DNA of 64,000 nt from Karstenula rhodostoma CBS 690.94 (taxonomy: Eukaryota; Ascomycota; Dothideomycetes; Pleosporales; Didymosphaeriaceae), in contig MU001505.1 of NCBI GenBank assembly GCA_010093485.1, forward strand, positions 1,081,375-1,145,374. Reading direction: 5' to 3'. Each line of letters begins with the position of its first letter. Position 1 is the stretch's first letter. Of this stretch, positions 39,211-64,000 are shown one piece after another. A program made the position numbers and the translations under genes. Under the pieces are notes generated by a model, which saw only the letters and a program-made list of their open reading frames with translations, had not been told where the DNA came from and did no database searches.

Positions 39211-42200
39211 ATGTCGCACACTGCTCGAAGAAAAGCGCAAGATGGCCAGTTTTCCTCGCGACCTCCTCCTTACACTGGACGACCACCACCCGAGATCCCC
39301 GTCAGCAGAAGCTCGAAGACAGATGGCTTAGAGAAATCTGGTCAGCATCGTAGCTCTTTCTCCAGAGCGAGCGAAAGATATACAGCAAAGTCGTTCTCAA
39401 ATGCTGAACCTGCCAATCGGAACGAACCACCTGCAGAGGTCACACATACGAAGACCTGCGGTTTCTGCGATGAACAGAAATCGCCAATATGGAACTGCTC
39501 ATACTGTGATACGAGCTTTTGCGATCCTTGTTGGGACTTGCAACTTCCACATCGACCTGGAAAAAAAGGGCCAGATGGGTTGCCTCACGAGAAAGCCAAC
39601 CCTACGATTGTGAAGAGATTAAAAGACATCCTGACCCCAAGTCAGGACCATTACGAGCAACATGCGCTACATATGGAGGACGAAGATACTACGTGGTTTG
39701 GCTTGGACCGAGACAGTCAAAATCGTCCCGTTTTCCAAGATTACGGTCGCTATTCGGCCATTATGGTCGAGAGCAACAACGGCGACTACAGGTCGCGATA
39801 TCCGCAATTGGTCTCGTTCATCGGACAGACTGGTGCAGGGAAAAGTACCCTCATAAAGATGCTGATTGACCAGCAGGAGAGAAAGTCCGTGACGCGAGAC
39901 TGGGGCTTTCCTTCTCCAGTAGCGGGATCATTGGCCAACGGGGGCAGTGTTCCAACCTCCGGTGACGTACACTTGTATAGCGATCCGAAGACCCACGCCT
40001 CGGGGTATCCTATGCTCTACGCCGACTGTGAAGGTCTTGAGGGCGGCGAAAACACACCAATGGCTGCGCAGTATCGTAGTAGTGTACCTGTTCCGCACAA
40101 AGAGAAGAAAAGAGACGAGCACATACCTAGAGAGCACCGCAAGCGGAACAAAATCACTAAGCCACTTCATTGTACGCAAAGGGACATCAAGTGGGCGAAC
40201 TCACCAGAGACATTGAAGCGGCAATATGCAGTTACGGAACTTTACCCTCGCCTGCTGTACACCTTCTCCGACGTGATAGTCTTCGTACTTCGCAATCCCA
40301 AGTATGTACCCGCGCATTCTATATATATTCTACTAACTGTCTCGTGCCAGAGTATTCGAATCTACAGTCATCTCCTTGCTCATCAATTGGGCGTCAACCT
40401 CGCTTGAAAAATCCTTGAACCAGCCCACGCTACCGCACGCTATAATTGTGCTGAACGCAACGGACACCAAAGTGAACCAGGGAGAATGGGACCCAGAGTA
40501 CGCGACGAGCCTACTCATGTCCAGCGTATCGGGTGCTATTGAGAGAGACCCGGATTTCCGGGCGCTCAAAGAGCACTGGTCAGAGCAAGGTAAACACATC
40601 CAAACCATGAAGGATCTTCTCGAATGCTACTACTCCTCCATTACCGTGGTTCGTATTCCTGGAGAGGGTCGCTACATGATGATCGATGATCAGATCGAGA
40701 AACTCCATGACGAGATCTCCAGACGCTGTAGTGAATCATTGAACGCGAAACGCAGATCCCGCATGCTGTCCAACTCTGAGACGCTGAATACCTATCTTCA
40801 ATGCGCTTTCGACCACTTTGCACAGGATCTCCATCAGCCTTTCGATTTCATGGACGTCTCTTTCAAAATCAACCCAATACCTTCGGATTTTGGTGGTAAT
40901 ATCCTGAAGTTGGCTGTCGCTATGAAATCCAGATACGACGATCCGCGAACCATGTTTAAGGACCTGAGCTACATAGTTGCGTCGTGCATCCTGTTAGACT
41001 GTGCGCGCCAGAATTCGCAAGGTACGTACTTCCCTCAGAGTTCGGTGCATCGTCCCTGATTGTGACAGGGCTTGCTGAGCAAATACTGGATAAACACTAC
41101 CTTCCGCACTGCGACTACGCACTCGAAGATTATTGTGCTATCTTTTGCCCCTGCACATATCGTAATAAGCGTGGCGAACAATGCGTGAATGTCAAGGAGC
41201 GGCATTCAAAAGGCCATCAGAACAAGCGCGGTCACATCATTGGCACTGGTCCATACGAAGCATACTGTACGTGATATCGGGAAACAAAGTGGATGTGTCT
41301 GCTGCTACCAAGGTCCCAATACTTCAGATAGTAGCGCGCAGGACACACCTACTCTTACCTATATCCCACTGATTCTCAATTATTTCACTGACTTTGTACC
41401 TCTATCTAGTCACTTTCGACAACTTCATGGAGGATTGGGCGCACCACCTGCGAGCTTCTCTTACTGATTTCCAGAACACACTTAGCTCTAAAAGGATGAT
41501 GTCACCTTCCGTTGACGAGGTACAGATCGTCAGCAAGATTCATCATGCTAACCTGAACAAATTCTACAGCCGATTGGGAGGAGCCCAGTGCTTCGTAAGT
41601 CACACTACATGCTTCTGTTGCCTGAGAGAGTTAGCCGAACATGCCCTTCCGTGTGGGCATGTGCTCTGCACACCCTGCATCAAAGGCTACGGCAAACCAC
41701 ACAGCGATCTCTCGGGATCCTTTACTGTTGCGTCCTGCCCTCTACATGAGTTCGATACGATATTCCCGGAGGCTTGGGACGTACACTTCAAGCCGCCACT
41801 GGCGGGTGTTCGCGTCCTTTCCTTGGATGGGTATGATTCTATACGGACTGATAAGCTCTCTCTGACATCGACAGTGGTGGAATGAGAGGAATCGTTATTC
41901 TCGAGGTTCTTCGGCAGCTCCAGACTGAACTGCGTGGAATGCCTGTTCAAGACTTTTTCGATCTCATCGTGGGTACAAGGTACGTTGCTTGATATTCGTG
42001 CAAGTATCAAAATTCGACTCTTTCCAACGTACGAGATCGCCATTAACTGTTCGCTTAGTACGGGAGGTATTCTAGCACTGGGTCTAGGCATCAAGAATTG
42101 GAGCATATCGACCTGTATCACCCTTTTCACAAGAATGGTAGACAGAGCGTTTACTCCAAGATTCCTTGGAGGAGTCAGTTTTGGCAAGCCAACATACCGC

Positions 42201-44138
42201 GCCTCTCCCCTCGAAGAATCTTTGAAAGAATGCTTCGGGGAAGAGTCAATTTTCGGAGGTGGACGGGAAACTTCCATCGCTTGTACGAGAAAAGTGGCGG
42301 TAACAGCTGCCACCGAAACGGGGGAGCGAGCTGTGATATTCACGAACTACAACCGCGCAGACGACGAAGAAGGTAATAGCAACCCTCCGTCTGCATGTTC
42401 GTTCTGACTCTTTCCAAGTCGGTTATCAACTGGTTCGGCCTGATAATCCGAAGAACGACCTTCGTGTACGCGAAGCGTAAGTGTTCAGTGGCAACTCGAG
42501 CATAACAGTTATGTGCTAACTAGTACCGAAGCGCTCGGGCTACCTCGGCTGCTCCCACGTTCTTCAAACCTTTCAGAAATCCAGACACCAAGGAAGGTTA
42601 CGTCGACGGCGCGATCTTCCACAACAATCCCGTAAGGATTGCAAATTACGAGAGCAAGCTGCTTTGGCCAGACGTCGAAGACCGCCATCCGGATATTCTG
42701 CTTTCCCTGGGTACTGCTCATCACGGGTCCGACAGAGATCAATCTCTACAGGCCACCAGTTCCGATCGAAGGCGTATGCATATCCGCAGGGTTTTCAGCT
42801 CAGTGGGTGAAAAACGCTCTACGCCTGCCTTGAGAGCTTTTGGTGAGATGGAAAGCTGGGTCACCATCTTCAAGAAGCGCATTGAGAGTGTGCTCGATGC
42901 CGAGTTGACGTGGAAAGAGTTTCGAAAGGAGATACGCGGAAAATCTTCCGAGATTGCTGTCGAGAGATACATACGCATCAACCCAAGGACCAAAGATCGG
43001 ACTCCGAAAATGGATGACAAGGATAAGATCCGCATTTTGCACGACGAGATCAAAACAGGTCTGACAAGAAACGATATGCAGATCAAAATCAAAACCATAG
43101 CCTACCGCTTGGTAGCTAGCTCATTTTACTTTGAGAAATCTGGACCCTGCAGGGAGGCAGGCGGTCATGTCACTATATCTGGTAAGTCTGATCCATGAGC
43201 TTGTCTTTGAGGTAGCATCTGACATAGGCAAGGCATGATTCGTTGTAGATTTGCAGCTGGATCTGAGAACCTACGTAATCTGGGAGATTACATGCGAAAG
43301 CATCAACGAGGCGAAAGGTTCCAGCCTTTCTTTCGTGTGCAAGAAGTCAACCACGATGAAAGCGTCCACAGCATCCCAATCACTGCCCAAGCCATACGTG
43401 ACATGATCGAGAGGGGACGTTTCGATTTGGGAAAGCTTGCCATACCCGTCACTTCCGAGATGTCTATCGTCTCAATCGATTTGCATCTTACCGACGACAA
43501 AGCAAGATATTTCGTAAGGTCAGGTTTCCCAATCAGCGGCTTTCCAAGAAGTCTATCAGATGGAGACGTTCTCAAAAGAATTCGTAAGTAATCTGCAGAG
43601 TGCCACCGTGCTTTCTCTAACAGGCACAGCTTCTGACACGGCATCGATGCCCGAGCGGCCAAGAATGGCTTCCAAGAGGCAGTCCCTGCGCGAGAAGCGC
43701 CACAACAACAGCCGCATATCTTTGGATCGGCCATCCAGCGATAGTAACATCTCCTACGAACTTCAGGGCTCTTCGAAAAATAGCAACAGCTCGAGATCTA
43801 ACCTGAGCTTTCCCGACACGCCCGACGATGTTTCGAGTTGGTCTCAACGTCGAATGGAGGCAAGCCGTCCCCCGCCGAAGCCTGTACAGCAGATGACGAG
43901 TGGGGGGCATTATCACATGGGTTTGCCAGGTCAACCTTTAAATGAAGAGCTCTACGAACTCGATTCCGAGCCCGTCGCGCGGTTTGAGGAGATGGGCCAT
44001 TCGGATGAAAATGACGAGGCATTGGTGCAGGTGCTGGAGCGTAGCCGCTACGAGGCGCAGTCGTTGCAGAGGACCGACACAGGGACCGATGAGGAAGAGC
44101 TGGCGAAGGCTTTGTCACTGTCTATGCAATTTCAATAG
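39211..44138 (+). CDS. B-box-like / GTPase / RING-like / patatin lipase / UIM fusion protein
   Basis: Ten exons (39211-40301, 40351-41021, 41069-41266, 41410-41830, 41875-41979, 42059-42372, 42419-42476, 42532-43181, 43233-43583, 43624-44138) join to 1457 residues. In order: a Cys/His zinc region (CGFC at 83, NCSYC, FCDPCW); a GTPase-like P-loop GQTGAGKST (205-213) with DCEG (272-275) and NATD (399-402), recalling dynamin/GBP proteins; a RING-like Cys/His cluster (721-760); and a patatin phospholipase domain with GGGMRG (794-799), nucleophile Ser829 in GTSTG and Asp978 in DGA. A Ser-rich linker and two ubiquitin-interacting-type helices (1414-1432 and 1442-1457, DEEELAKALSLSM) end the protein. 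Patatins hydrolyse membrane lipids. The other parts suggest GTP- and ubiquitin-controlled action, which is inference. Intron 4 is long at 143 nt and its position is the least certain. Confidence 0.88.
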
Positions 44139-50351: not shown

Positions 50352-53300
50352 TCAAGTAGTCGAGCGCACTACACCAGGCGCTGCAGCAACAGCCTCTGCA
50401 AACGCAGTGAAAGCCTCAACGTCCGACCCGCGAGGCAGGCCAATCTGCAACGAAACCTGCGTCGCCTCCCCGAGAGCAAACAGCAGCAACTCCAGCGTGT
50501 CAAGGAGCTCCGATAGCTTCCTGGACCGCAACTCGCTCACGAGCCAGGGTGTCAGCGACGCCCCGTCCCGAGGACCTGTCTGCGGAGGCCGGTTGAATCG
50601 GACACGCTGCTTTGTTCCCTTCTGCGCTTGGATGGCGATTCGACCGGCCTTTGGCGGTGTTTTGTCTAGGCTGATGTAGCTCTGGGGAGGGTGTGTCGGT
50701 TCTAACACGTTTCGAGGGTCTGGATTGGATGTTGCTTCTGGGGTTTGAGGTTCTGGGTTGGATGATACCTCTGGGGGTGGCTGTGGTGTTTCTTCTTGGG
50801 GTGCCAGTGTGTCCGGAACGCTGTTGTTGTGGATATCACGCATTGCTTCTGGTGGAGAGTGCGTTTCAGGAGCGCTTGCGTCTTCTGAGCCACGCATGGC
50901 TTCCGTCGTTGCTCCCGTGATCGCTTTGGGCTGCGTCACTGTCATCGTCTCCGGAGAGGCGTGGGAGCGACTTCTTGCCCGCCCCTTGCTCCGATTATTC
51001 CAGACTACGACTTCCGCGTTGAGCATGGCAATGCCGGGGTCGAATGCCGCCGTCCCAAGCACCGCACCATCATATAGGGCTATTATGTCAATGTGAGTTC
51101 CGTCGGGCTCGTACCCCGTCCCATGCGAACAGAAGACAGCCATTTCCGGAACCTGCAGGCTGTATTCTGTGTTTTGCAGCACGACGGTGCAACCTAGCAC
51201 TTGTACTTGCTGCACGTCCAGAACATTGGACGCAACCGCGAATCTGAGAGGTGTCTGGTCGTCATCGTTGCCAGACTCAACCACCGGGGGTTCTACAGCA
51301 GCATAAGGATCGTAATTCCACTTGGTCATAACTGACGTTGACAATAGCCACAACGGCTCGGCAATGCTCCTCAGCGCGTTAAGCCATCTAGCACTTCCGA
51401 CGACGCAATATCGACGTTTTCCTTGCCGATGGCGTTCAAAGCTGATGATCTCATGCAAAGACCTTCGCTCTTGTGACGAGAACACGCGTGAGAAGACGTC
51501 GGATAGTGATGCGTATCGGGCCCCTGGAACGTCCAAAAGGATTTCTGGGTCTGCCTGATGAAGGAGGAAGCACCTCGCCATCTCGTAATGCAGTCGCATG
51601 CGGCCATGCTTAGCAGCCCCTTTTCCAGCAAGATAGACAGCTCGTAGAAACGAACCCCAGATCGTTTCCTGACGAATCGGATCAAAAATAATATTTGGAT
51701 CCGCACCATACCGAAAGAGTATCTTAAGCAAGTCGAGGTATAATTGGGTGACGTTTCTGGGTGCGTGGAGCTTTTGCATCGCCATGACGAGATGCCCCCA
51801 TGCTGCCACCCCTTCCGAGCGGCTAGTAGCGGTATTCTCTGGAACGTAATCTGCATTTATGTTGGCCTTATTGACAAGCAATATCTCGAGCACCTCCTGC
51901 CTCTGTCGTATCACATTAGGATCTGTGGACAGCCGAGAAGCCCCTTCTCTGGTGTAACAGATGTCGTGGAGATAATTGCCAAATACGGTGGATTGTCCAT
52001 ACCATTGGTTTGGATCCACGCCCTGCTGCACGAGAAATTTGACCATCTCTGGTATTTCAGCATCCTTGTTTTTGAGTGCCGGAGAGAAGCGCAAAGCACT
52101 GTTGAGAAGCGGTCGAGGACTCTTGCGAATGAGATGAGGGTCGTCTTTCAGCGATGCTGCTACGTATAGGCGGAGACCTGACCTAACAGCAAACTCCAGA
52201 AACGTCTTACAAGTTTTATAGCTGCCGCTTGTGAATATATCCCAGATAATCTGGCAGTTGCCGTGAGAGGAAGAAAGCCAGATAGCCGTGTCTTCGAGCT
52301 CGTCGAGAACATGGCGTGGAGACGCGTCCATTTCGAATTCAGCTTGTCTAGCGTGATACATGAATGTGTGCAAGAGTTCCTGGAATATACTGGGACGTAT
52401 TAGATTCTGTCTCCTCCAAGGCATTGCCTTCACAAGCGAGAGATAGACTTTGCAGAGGGACTCGTTCGCATTGAAAGCTGGTCGTCTGGCACTCAGGTAG
52501 CTGGAGAGTAGTTTCTGAATCTCTTTCAACTGAAGAAAATCGTGGACTGTGCGATGGAAAAATTCGACGCGGTAACCGAAGAAGTCACTTGCAGAGCTTT
52601 CGGCAGAGACTTCCAGCAGGCCTTTGTAGCGACCGTTGATTCGTCGCTTAGTCTGTCTGTGGCGAACAAATATATCGTTACGATCGAAGGCTCTGATTCG
52701 GGCGTTGATTGCGTAGTCTGGATCGGCTTCGTCCAAGAAAGAGTAGGCTATCAACGTCAATGGCTCAGTAGCCTGCAGTGCAACCTGGAAGGTCCTCGCC
52801 ATGATTTCACGATATTCTACCTCAACGCTTTCAATTATAAGCCTGAAATAGTGTTCCAGATCCGCAGGTAGGCGACGGACTCTTTCTTGGAGTAGGTACA
52901 CATCATCCCCGTTGGTCAACCCTTCGCACAAAGAACGGACCACGAGGAAAACCCAAAGGAAGACGCCCTCGGCTTTGTTGACGATGTCTTCGATCAGCCC
53001 GTCATACCCGTCCTCGGCTATCGAAAACATGGTTATCGCCGTGTGCTCCTCGAACTTACTACGGACGTAGTCTTCGATGTCGCCACGGGTTAGATCTTCG
53101 AGATATAGTAGGCGAGAAGCGTCCCTTCCGTAGGCATCCTCGAACACGTTCCACTGTCTACTAGACACACACACCTTGACAGATTGGGTGGACGACGCCA
53201 GGGTATCTAAAATGCGAACAATGTCGAGGTGTCGGCCTTCGTATTCGTCCAGACCGTCGATGAAGAAGCAAAACTTGGTGGTGGATGCATGTTCGGAACT

Positions 53301-54490
53301 AAAGATGCGAAAGATGACGTCGCTGAGTTCAGCCAGGTCCCAACCTTCACCATCTGTCGAAGTGTCCTCTGCGATCCATCGTTCAGGGCACGCCGTTGCT
53401 ATCAGATCTGGGCATCGTCTGAAGATTTCGAACAGCAGACACCGAAGCAAGCCTTCTTGGGATTTCTGCATTGGCGTCCCAACGCTCCAAAAGAAGAATG
53501 CAGCCATGACGAGCTTAGAACCGTCTGCCCATACGTGGAGAGCTTCTCTTGTGCGCTGCTCCTCGTACAGGTACTTCATCAACGTCGACTTTCCGGAGCC
53601 TGGTTTACCGGATATCCAATAAATCCCTCGGTCATGATGCAGCCAGTCAGTAAAGCCAGCATCGCAGTCGGGATCAAAGATCCAGCTGAAAGTCGTACCA
53701 TGCGCTTCCTGGATCCTTGACAGACGTGCGGACATGGTTTTGAAACGGAGGCTTCCAAGAATATGTTGTTCCTTAGCTAGACAGGATGCACGACTATTCA
53801 ACTCGACGAGTTTGACAGAAAGGGAGTGCAGGTCAAGTTGACTCGGAGCAGAAGATGCAGAGTCCTGTATAGTTCGCCGAAGCGACTCTAGAGCATCCGC
53901 CAGGCCATCAATTTTCTCTGTTTGGTTGGCGTTCATCCGTCTGTTCTCGCCAGCTAGAACTTGCAATTCGTGCAGGACGCTCGATTGTCGGTCTCTGTGT
54001 AGAGAATCAACGTGGCTCTTCTCTTGGAAGATGCAAATGCTGGAGACCCCTACCCAAGAATGCCTAAAAGACGGACCGTCAGTTGTCCGCGGAAATCAGC
54101 AAGCCTCTTTTGGAGATTGTCTATGTCGGTCTGTTTCCATGTAGACTTCATAGCCTGGCGGAAACTTCGCCACTTCCGATGATGGCCATCTGCGTTGACC
54201 TTCAAGGCGTTGATGATGTTGAGGAGCTCATTGGCAACAGTTAGGCAGGAGGCCGCTAGTTGGCGTAGACTCTCTTCTTCCGGGGTTTGGCTGCTGTTGT
54301 TTGGCGTCTGAAGGCTCTTTGTGAACTTGATCAGATCGGTATAGATCATCTCTAGTTCGACTATTCCGGTGGAAGTGCCTGTGGCGGACTTGTAGATTTC
54401 ATGGGACTCGGATACCAGCTTGCTTCCAAACTCGATGAACTGTACCACGTTCGCGGCGATGCCCAGGGCGGAGAATGGATCCAACCCCAT
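50352..54490 (-). CDS. NACHT STAND receptor (fungal NLR-like), 1359 aa
   Basis: Two minus-strand exons (54490-54054 and 53994-50352) are joined by a 59-nt intron that restores LLGILGDRQSSVLHEL. Residues 1-145 start MGLDPFSALGIAANVVQFIE and form the helical N-terminal domain common in fungal STAND proteins (SesA/Helo-like, Fungal_N). A coiled segment leads to the NACHT domain, with Walker A GKPGSGKST (275-283) and Walker B FCFFIDGLDEY (about 388-398). A winged-helix-like region follows (FFGYRVEFFHRTVHDFLQ). Residues about 790-960 hold degenerate ankyrin-like units (VKFLVQQGVDPN, LKILFRYGADPN). A Pro/Glu/Thr-rich linker (about 1150-1270) and a final helical segment end the protein. Relatives control heterokaryon incompatibility and possibly immunity through nucleotide-driven oligomerisation. 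Confidence 0.9.
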
Positions 54491-62559: not shown

Positions 62560-63290
62560 CTAATAAAGTATACTTATTATATAGAAACTAGTATTAGTTA
62601 GTTACCTCTTTATTTATTTATTTAGAATCCTTATTTTACTAAGTTAAATTTATTTAATTACTATCTTTCCTTAGAACTAGTTATTAAAATCTATTAAAAG
62701 CTTTTTTAGTATTTTATAATTAAATACTATATACCCCTATTACTATTATTAAATATTAATTATATATAACTATTATTTTTATTATTTTTTATTCTTTATT
62801 TTTTACCCTTTATTCTTTACTCTTTACCCTTTATCTATTACCCTATAGGCTCTATACTTAGAACTTAAAATAGGATTTAAAACTTCTTTACTATTACTAT
62901 TACTATTACTATTACTATTACTATTACTATTACTATTACTATTATTATTATCTATATCTATACTACTATACTATATAGAATCTCCTATATTTAGTAAATA
63001 TTTATTTTATTATTTATTATTTTTATTATAAACTTTTTATTCTCTTTAGTCTCCTCTTTATTATTACTATAGTAATTCTATATATTCTATATCTTCTATT
63101 ACTATAGTATATATCTATAGTCTAGAAATAATAAATATTATATTACTAGCTAATTTAGCTTATATAGTTTAAATACTTTTTTTATATTTATATATATTTT
63201 AAATTTAGATTTTAGCTAGCTCTTAACTTTTTAGATATTATAACTATTACCTATTATTATTATTATTATTATTATTATTTAAATATCTTT
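62560..63290 (-). mobile_element. Inverted copy of the 22.6-23.3 kb repeat
   Basis: Reverse-complement matches are seen at both ends of the stretch to 23160-23290 and 22680-22830. An ACTATT microsatellite of about ten units (62889-62950) lies within. Confidence 0.6.
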
Positions 63291-63321
63291 ACTATACTTT
63301 TTTATTTTATTATAGGTATTA

Positions 63322-63326
<5 letters not shown>

Positions 63327-63417
<91 letters not shown>
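63327..63417. repeat. ATT trinucleotide microsatellite
   Basis: About thirty ATT units run directly into the gap, which probably stopped the assembly. Confidence 0.9.
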
Positions 63418-64000
63418 NNNNNNNNNNNNNNNNNNNNNNNNNNNNNNNNNNNNNNNNNNNNNNNNNNNNNNNNNNNNNNNNNNNNNNNNNNNNNNNNNNN
63501 NNNNNNNNNNNNNNNNNNNNNNNNNNNNNNNNNNNNNNNNNNNNNNNNNNNNNNNNNNNNNNNNNNNNNNNNNNNNNNNNNNNNNNNNNNNNNNNNNNNN
63601 NNNNNNNNNNNNNNNNNNNNNNNNNNNNNNNNNNNNNNNNNNNNNNNNNNNNNNNNNNNNNNNNNNNNNNNNNNNNNNNNNNNNNNNNNNNNNNNNNNNN
63701 NNNNNNNNNNNNNNNNNNNNNNNNNNNNNNNNNNNNNNNNNNNNNNNNNNNNNNNNNNNNNNNNNNNNNNNNNNNNNNNNNNNNNNNNNNNNNNNNNNNN
63801 NNNNNNNNNNNNNNNNNNNNNNNNNNNNNNNNNNNNNNNNNNNNNNNNNNNNNNNNNNNNNNNNNNNNNNNNNNNNNNNNNNNNNNNNNNNNNNNNNNNN
63901 NNNNNNNNNNNNNNNNNNNNNNNNNNNNNNNNNNNNNNNNNNNNNNNNNNNNNNNNNNNNNNNNNNNNNNNNNNNNNNNNNNNNNNNNNNNNNNNNNNNN
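63418..64000. other. Assembly gap (N)
   Basis: 583 undetermined bases. Confidence 0.99.

Follow-up and report, generated by a model that had tools for sequence, protein, structure and literature searches.

The known immune effectors of the patatin type are gated by cyclic dinucleotides, as in the cyclic oligonucleotide-based antiphage signalling systems (CBASS), or by NB-ARC switches, as in fungal NOD-like receptors (NLRs), and G domains of the GBP class dimerise on GTP. Further patatins are described as gated, ExoU by ubiquitin and VipD by the GTPase Rab5 (PMC12871566), and PLP-1 is given a cell-death role (PMC12881547, PMC10197012), while patatin domains of NLRs are mentioned in two papers whose available text includes neither a RING nor a GTPase (PMC4986451, PMC9815663). 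Two other papers describe SMG8-SMG9, in which a G domain that binds nucleotide is joined by one that does not (PMC5473137), and septin pseudoGTPases, which retain assembly interfaces (PMC10731463). The present work deals with a gene of Karstenula rhodostoma CBS 690.94 (Dothideomycetes, Pleosporales), located at positions 39211-44138 of the + strand in a stretch of 64,000 nucleotides, hereafter the window, of a 1,754,722-base contig (MU001505.1; assembly of 44.3 Mb). Its predicted product joins a GTPase, several zinc modules of a type known from the ubiquitin system and a patatin lipase in one chain. No account of this architecture or of this mix of domains was found in the open-licence PMC literature, preprints excluded, in agreement with a preliminary description of the sequence, which knew of no protein with this full order. 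The parts themselves are known; what appears to be new is their combination, together with the reciprocal pattern in which sister families have lost their active sites.

Gene structure

The gene was spliced by hand into ten exons (39211-40301, 40351-41021, 41069-41266, 41410-41830, 41875-41979, 42059-42372, 42419-42476, 42532-43181, 43233-43583 and 43624-44138) encoding 1457 amino acids, a structure backed by its introns, its relatives and a deposited model. All nine introns, of 40-143 nucleotides, are GT-AG, and eight contain a CTRAY branch-like site, in one case just 7 nucleotides from the 3' end. The coding frame is uninterrupted from its start codon onwards, as against 50 and 59 stops in the spliced sequence read in frames 1 and 2. 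At each of the nine exon joints, 11-16 of the 16 surrounding residues are identical in the close relative P0002, the last joint being poorly conserved in more distant relatives (1-8 of 16). The protein deposited for this strain, P0001 (1441 amino acids), is 99% identical to the spliced product, and the two models differ only around exon 7 and the exon 9/10 joint. Exon 7 (42419-42476) is missing from the P0001 model, which follows a different reading in the surrounding region (42373-42531) and thus loses a block before ARATSAAP which is conserved in relatives; these relatives support exon 7 as a part of the gene.

A search at E<=1e-3 gave 680 proteins, here called family A, and all counts for this family refer to the best 120 of the 680. 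The best relative covers 100% of the protein, and single database proteins of similar length occur in many genera, the named sources being what we take to be filamentous ascomycetes; one relative labelled as the plant Quercus suber (P0059) was taken as a fungal contaminant. That annotation has merely fused two or more neighbouring genes is barely credible: some database proteins are shorter (e.g. P0025 and P0031), but the same fusion recurs across many genera and comes from several sources, the joints match those of relatives (at the last one, close relatives only) and the spliced frame is open throughout. On sequence grounds it is confirmed that one real gene joins GTPase, zinc modules and patatin in one chain, as the ten-exon frame of the preliminary description had proposed.

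GTPase and patatin domains

All the segments previously listed (a B-box-like zinc region, a P-loop with DCEG and NATD, a RING-like cluster and a patatin catalytic pair) were located, in this order. The G domain (residues ~154-525, 39670-40834, interrupted by the intron 40302-40350) carries G1 GQTGAGKST (residues 205-213, 39823-39849), a switch-I-like PTSGDVHLY (39952-39978), G3 DCEG (residues 272-275, 40024-40035) and a G4-like NATD (residues 399-402, 40454-40465), all on the + strand, as is every further feature of the gene. A GBP/dynamin-type domain had been proposed here; in structure models, which are those of two homologues and not of the window protein itself, a GTPase fold is present in the region corresponding to residues 190-450. 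It belongs to the GBP/atlastin class of the dynamin superfamily, with atlastins, Sey1 and RNF112 among the nearest G domains, the class being assigned from the fold alone since sequence comparison gave none. In fact, the window protein gave no match at E<=10 to the Pfam families GBP (PF02263) and RHD3 (PF05879), neither of which appears in the E<=1 listings of nine members, and in this genome both match only one place, on contig C11; Dynamin_N appears below cut-off in five of the nine members (best 0.0017). The canonical G4 motif is NKxD, and RD its GBP/atlastin form; in a 121-row alignment of the family, the G4-like motif has Asn in 119 rows and Asp/Glu in 116, and Sey1 of this genome reads VIRD. 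The G domain is followed by a helical region (residues 501-600, 40760-41106), where the GBP/atlastin middle domain would sit. Both homologue models have long helices there, and some of the GBP/atlastin structural alignments extend into it, mostly with a root-mean-square deviation of 6-15, a GBP-type middle domain being suggested by helices only.

Other assignments of the G domain were discarded. AIG1/GIMAP (PF04548), also considered in the preliminary description, has no Pfam match in the window protein, the nine members or the genome, and GIMAP2 is just Foldseek rank 48 (E 4.1e-3); a small-GTPase label has no sequence match at family level. Matches to ABC, AAA and RsgA, and to the PADLOC models LeoBC (2e-4) and LeoA (0.008; with P0001), are drawn by the P-loop alone and were not regarded as kinship, and labels like "energy-coupling factor transporter ATP-binding protein" on fragments were put down to the P-loop as artefacts. 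A fungal NLR was likewise rejected, no NACHT or NB-ARC being above cut-off and the fold being GBP/atlastin-like. A scan of prokaryotes with two peptide patterns from the G domain gave short stretches only (query residues 5-100) at no fewer than five loci, and no relative was seen, a weak negative. Elsewhere in the genome (L038, G000:C11:481500-482600), an open frame of 1026 codons encodes a dynamin-like GTPase with GNTGAGKSS, unlike canonical dynamins.

Patatin (PF01734) is the sole Pfam family above cut-off in the window protein (87.8 bits against 27.7, residues 790-990), its fold, present in the homologue models, spanning residues ~785-1155 (41802-43138). It contains the oxyanion loop DGGGMRG (residues 793-799), the nucleophile Ser829 in GTSTG (827-831), whose codon is split by the intron 41980-42058, and the catalytic Asp978 in DGA (978-980; Asp codon 42605-42607), so that the pair noted previously is intact and the lipase of this species probably active. 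Among solved structures, the best profile match is CapV of bacterial CBASS (1.5e-25), with iPLA2-beta at 9.6e-21, and a PADLOC phospholipase effector model matches P0001 at 3e-39. CapV is also the best Foldseek match of the P0060 model, the VIA Z values being near level (patatin-17 32.1, CapV 31.2, iPLA2-beta 31.1). In a viral fold library, patatins and dynamin-like proteins surfaced as separate rows.

Reciprocal loss of the active sites

Conservation of the two sites differs within family A. The P-loop lysine is Lys in 118 of the 120 relatives (one gap, one Ile), whereas at the patatin nucleophile Ser is retained by 78 and replaced by Gly in 40, by Asp in one and by Asn in one, both Ser and the catalytic Asp being kept in 75. 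In a FastTree tree the lysine changes once and the Ser column at least six times, a parsimony count which permits regain as well as loss; moreover, Ser-to-Gly is read from predicted proteins, loss of Ser being taken as loss of activity. A clade of 33 (support 1.0; among P0059-P0120), much of which presumably belongs to Capnodiales/Mycosphaerellales, to judge from species names, has Gly throughout at the nucleophile position and keeps the Asp. The patatin domain is still retained by this clade, with an identity of 0.734 versus 0.812 for the G domain, while the rows which keep Ser show the opposite trend (patatin 0.561, G domain 0.541). Furthermore, a small group which we take to be Xylariales (P0065, P0078, P0079 and P0087) has lost both Ser and Asp. 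The constant of the family A relatives thus appears to be the GTPase site, and not the lipase site.

The opposite situation was encountered in a sister gene of the same genome, with five exons and 971 amino acids (L015 241-3339, G000:C19:730513-734271; deposited as P0241). It has a RING, a patatin with intact Ser and part of the C-terminal region; GTRRKS stands at the expected P-loop place, and its model includes no B-box-like module. Profile comparison of its N-terminus with the family A G domain gave 98.5% (pairwise E 2.3e-15, 208 columns), and with more rows 99.5% (4.1e-22, 213 columns), an unrelated zinc-module alignment used as a control giving no match. The rows of this family B are P0241-P0294 plus the gene itself (55); of the 79 hits, the last 25 (P0295-P0319), which include short pieces and animal iPLA2-gamma, were not used. 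None of the 55 rows, 48 of which cover the P-loop place, has the pattern G-x4-GK[ST] in its first half, and the nucleophile is Ser in 54 of 54 covering rows and the Asp is kept in 41 of 42. Family B therefore appears to be a pseudoGTPase in which the lipase dyad is intact, and would be the mirror image of those members of family A which have lost Ser.

Both families occur in this genome; elsewhere co-occurrence is seen only by shared names, Saxophila tyrrhenica, for instance, being listed with a family A member that has lost the Ser (P0067) and with a member of family B (P0276). One could conceive that A and B form heteromers through their G domains, like SMG8-SMG9 or septins, A keeping the GTP switch with a dispensable lipase and B keeping the lipase with a dead G domain. 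GTP binding by A would then license lipid cleavage by B, and the variable tails of family A (UIM-like, SPRY, ankyrin or SH3) would pick the target, resulting in an undescribed fungal machine for membrane damage or defence. This proposal is considered very doubtful; family B, at 79 hits as compared with 680 for A, seems to be the less widespread and could hardly be an obligate partner everywhere, which weighs against heteromers in their general form.

Zinc modules, RING and tails

Three zinc modules surround the G domain, their ligands being counted over the 121-row alignment, where most exceptions are gaps. The first (residues 81-128, 39451-39594; C83, C86, C96, C99, C104, C107, H114 and H126) is kept in 101-120 rows. 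Of nine pieces, seven match the family zf-B_box (PF00643) at E<=1, with 1.2e-5 as the best value. The piece from the window reaches 14.4 bits, below the cut-off of 24.1, hence the name B-box-like only; profile matches in the PDB are Midline-1 (0.0027) and p300 (0.0066). The second, absent from the earlier list, is a C2H2-like cluster (residues 614-639, 41146-41223; C616, C626, H633 and H637) kept in 118-119 rows. The third is a RING finger (residues 719-768, 41604-41753) with a complete order of ligands (C721, C724, C735, H737, C740, C743, C763 and H766), the first seven being kept in 118-121 rows and the eighth being His in 115 and Cys in four; its PDB profile matches are TRIM34 (0.0016) and RNF141 (0.0017). 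A TRIM protein, with its order of RING, B-box and coiled coil, was rejected, as here the B-box-like module precedes the G domain and the RING follows it.

These data bear on the possibility that the protein is above all a ubiquitin ligase or scaffold, which would work through its RING, its B-box-like module and GTP-driven assembly, the patatin fold serving mainly as a lipid-binding or structural part. Such a role would suit the retention of the RING ligands in 115-121 of 121 rows, as against a nucleophile lost in 42 of 120, and also the patatin domain still kept by the Ser-lost clade. Nevertheless, most relatives and the protein studied here retain the Ser, generally with its Asp, the RING lies below the Pfam cut-offs and E3 (ubiquitin ligase) activity is only predicted. 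This explanation is considered distinctly unlikely.

Downstream of the patatin lies an alpha/beta domain (residues ~1171-1290, 43235-43634), well predicted in the P0060 model and probably corresponding to the Pfam family PF28431, the place of which follows from its distribution: all 60 carriers cover at least 87% of residues 1181-1290, and six of 60 non-carriers are without most of the region. The protein ends in a tail with two helices resembling ubiquitin-interacting motifs (UIMs; 43995-44129). Of the two UIMs proposed earlier, the second helix (1441-1455) is fair, at 13.7 bits with PF02809 under a cut-off of 21, and the first (~1411-1426) weak. Many close relatives retain the core acidic-L-x-x-A-L-x-x-S at their C-terminus, and 24 of the 120 relatives have a UIM-like pattern within their last 200 residues (shuffled mean 2.9, maximum 8), a stricter one being found in the last 250 residues of 20 of 121 rows. 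Ubiquitin sensing through UIMs, as previously proposed, does not hold as a family trait, since such tails are present in about a fifth of the relatives, mainly the closest ones. Other members end differently: P0035 and P0037 carry SPRY together with ankyrin repeats (those of P0035 being below cut-off), SPRY is also precomputed for P0038, P0052 and P0054, and P0061 has SH3. The lineage-specific tails look like an exchangeable reader or targeting part.

As regards the surroundings of the gene, Rfam and tRNA scans of the window gave no match. At 50355-54095, on the - strand and ~6 kb from the gene, an NLR frame of 1247 codons matches NPHP3_N/NACHT, DUF7791 and ankyrin, and a low-complexity repeat followed by N occupies the right end (63216-64000).

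Proposed function

The explanation preferred here, held tentatively and at somewhat under even chances, is a GTP-switched, ubiquitin-coupled membrane lipase or scaffold, whatever its purpose. The GBP/atlastin-class G domain would most likely bind GTP and then dimerise or oligomerise on a membrane, an assembly that would switch the patatin and the RING from an idle to a working state and back. A link to ubiquitin may be made by the RING and, in this lineage, by the UIM-like helices, whether through the marking of targets or through recruitment to ubiquitin-coated membranes. In this species, where the dyad is intact, the output would probably be the cleavage of phospholipids or lysophospholipids close to the scaffold. 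About half of the weight given to this explanation goes to a purpose in defence or cell death, a plausible role suggested by analogy with the CapV-like patatin, by the changing tails and by the PLP-1/hetC precedents (PMC12881547, PMC10197012, PMC11138114).

Several points weigh against a GTP-switched lipase of this kind. Lipid cutting, proposed in the preliminary description, is unlikely in those relatives that have lost the nucleophile (42 of 120), so that lipase action is not the common function of the family. The G4-like NAT[DE] is neither NKxD nor RD, and GTP specificity is thus not assured. Moreover, the controls from this genome all matched the G domain weakly (Sey1 41% over 73 columns, dynamins 48%/40, septin 57%/24 and NACHT 66%/24), and no known class is joined by sequence. 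On the ubiquitin side, the RING remains under its Pfam cut-offs (zf-RING_UBOX 13.6 against 25.2 bits, zf-C3HC4 10.8 against 21), the UIM-like tails are both sub-threshold and restricted, and the E3 and GTPase activities of RNF112 are reported to be unrelated (PMC12012479). Finally, the membrane anchor of the protein is putative.

The latter point also concerns the main rival, a housekeeping remodeller of membranes or organelles, whose patatin would trim lipids at contact sites, droplets or vesicles and whose RING would serve its own turnover, with no part in defence. Atlastins, Sey1 and RNF112 among the nearest folds, conservation over the whole length in close relatives and the full-length copy found in this genome (one, as a lower bound) are what such a function would lead one to expect. 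However, the tails vary, some species hold two listed members (e.g. Aaosphaeria arxii and Boeremia exigua), and the repeated changes of the nucleophile on the tree, together with the P-loop lost in the sister family, are more like a fast-changing recognition system. Housekeeping is judged rather unlikely. If the GTP-switched lipase is the correct explanation, a GBP/atlastin-type GTPase gate acting in cis, beside a RING, would be added to the known ways of gating patatins in many filamentous ascomycetes, uniting in one chain the GBP-class GTPases of animal cell-autonomous immunity and the patatins of bacterial and fungal immunity. Because one or the other active site has been lost repeatedly, the question of which activity is essential can be tested directly.

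Comparison with known systems

Among the described proteins, RNF112/neurolastin also combines a RING and a dynamin-superfamily GTPase, but there the RING precedes the G domain, whereas here it comes after it, identity is 12% over the aligned part, and patatin is unmentioned in the available portion of its account. GBP1 and atlastin-1 differ by having RD in place of NAT[DE], by the Pfam GBP/RHD3 match which this protein does not give and by the fusion, here, to zinc modules and a lipase. SMG8-SMG9 works with the SMG1 kinase in mRNA decay and has no lipase. The partners of ExoU and VipD act in trans, VipD being just Foldseek rank 48 with the P0060 model. CapV, the best match of the patatin part by both profile and Foldseek, acts as an effector on its own under the control of a cyclic dinucleotide, whereas in this gene the patatin lies in cis with the GTPase. 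PLP-1 and further fungal NLRs with a patatin likewise unite this domain and a nucleotide-binding module in a single protein; the module of PLP-1 is an NB-ARC, accompanied by TPR repeats, and the protein of K. rhodostoma has a dynamin-type G domain, a RING and zinc modules.

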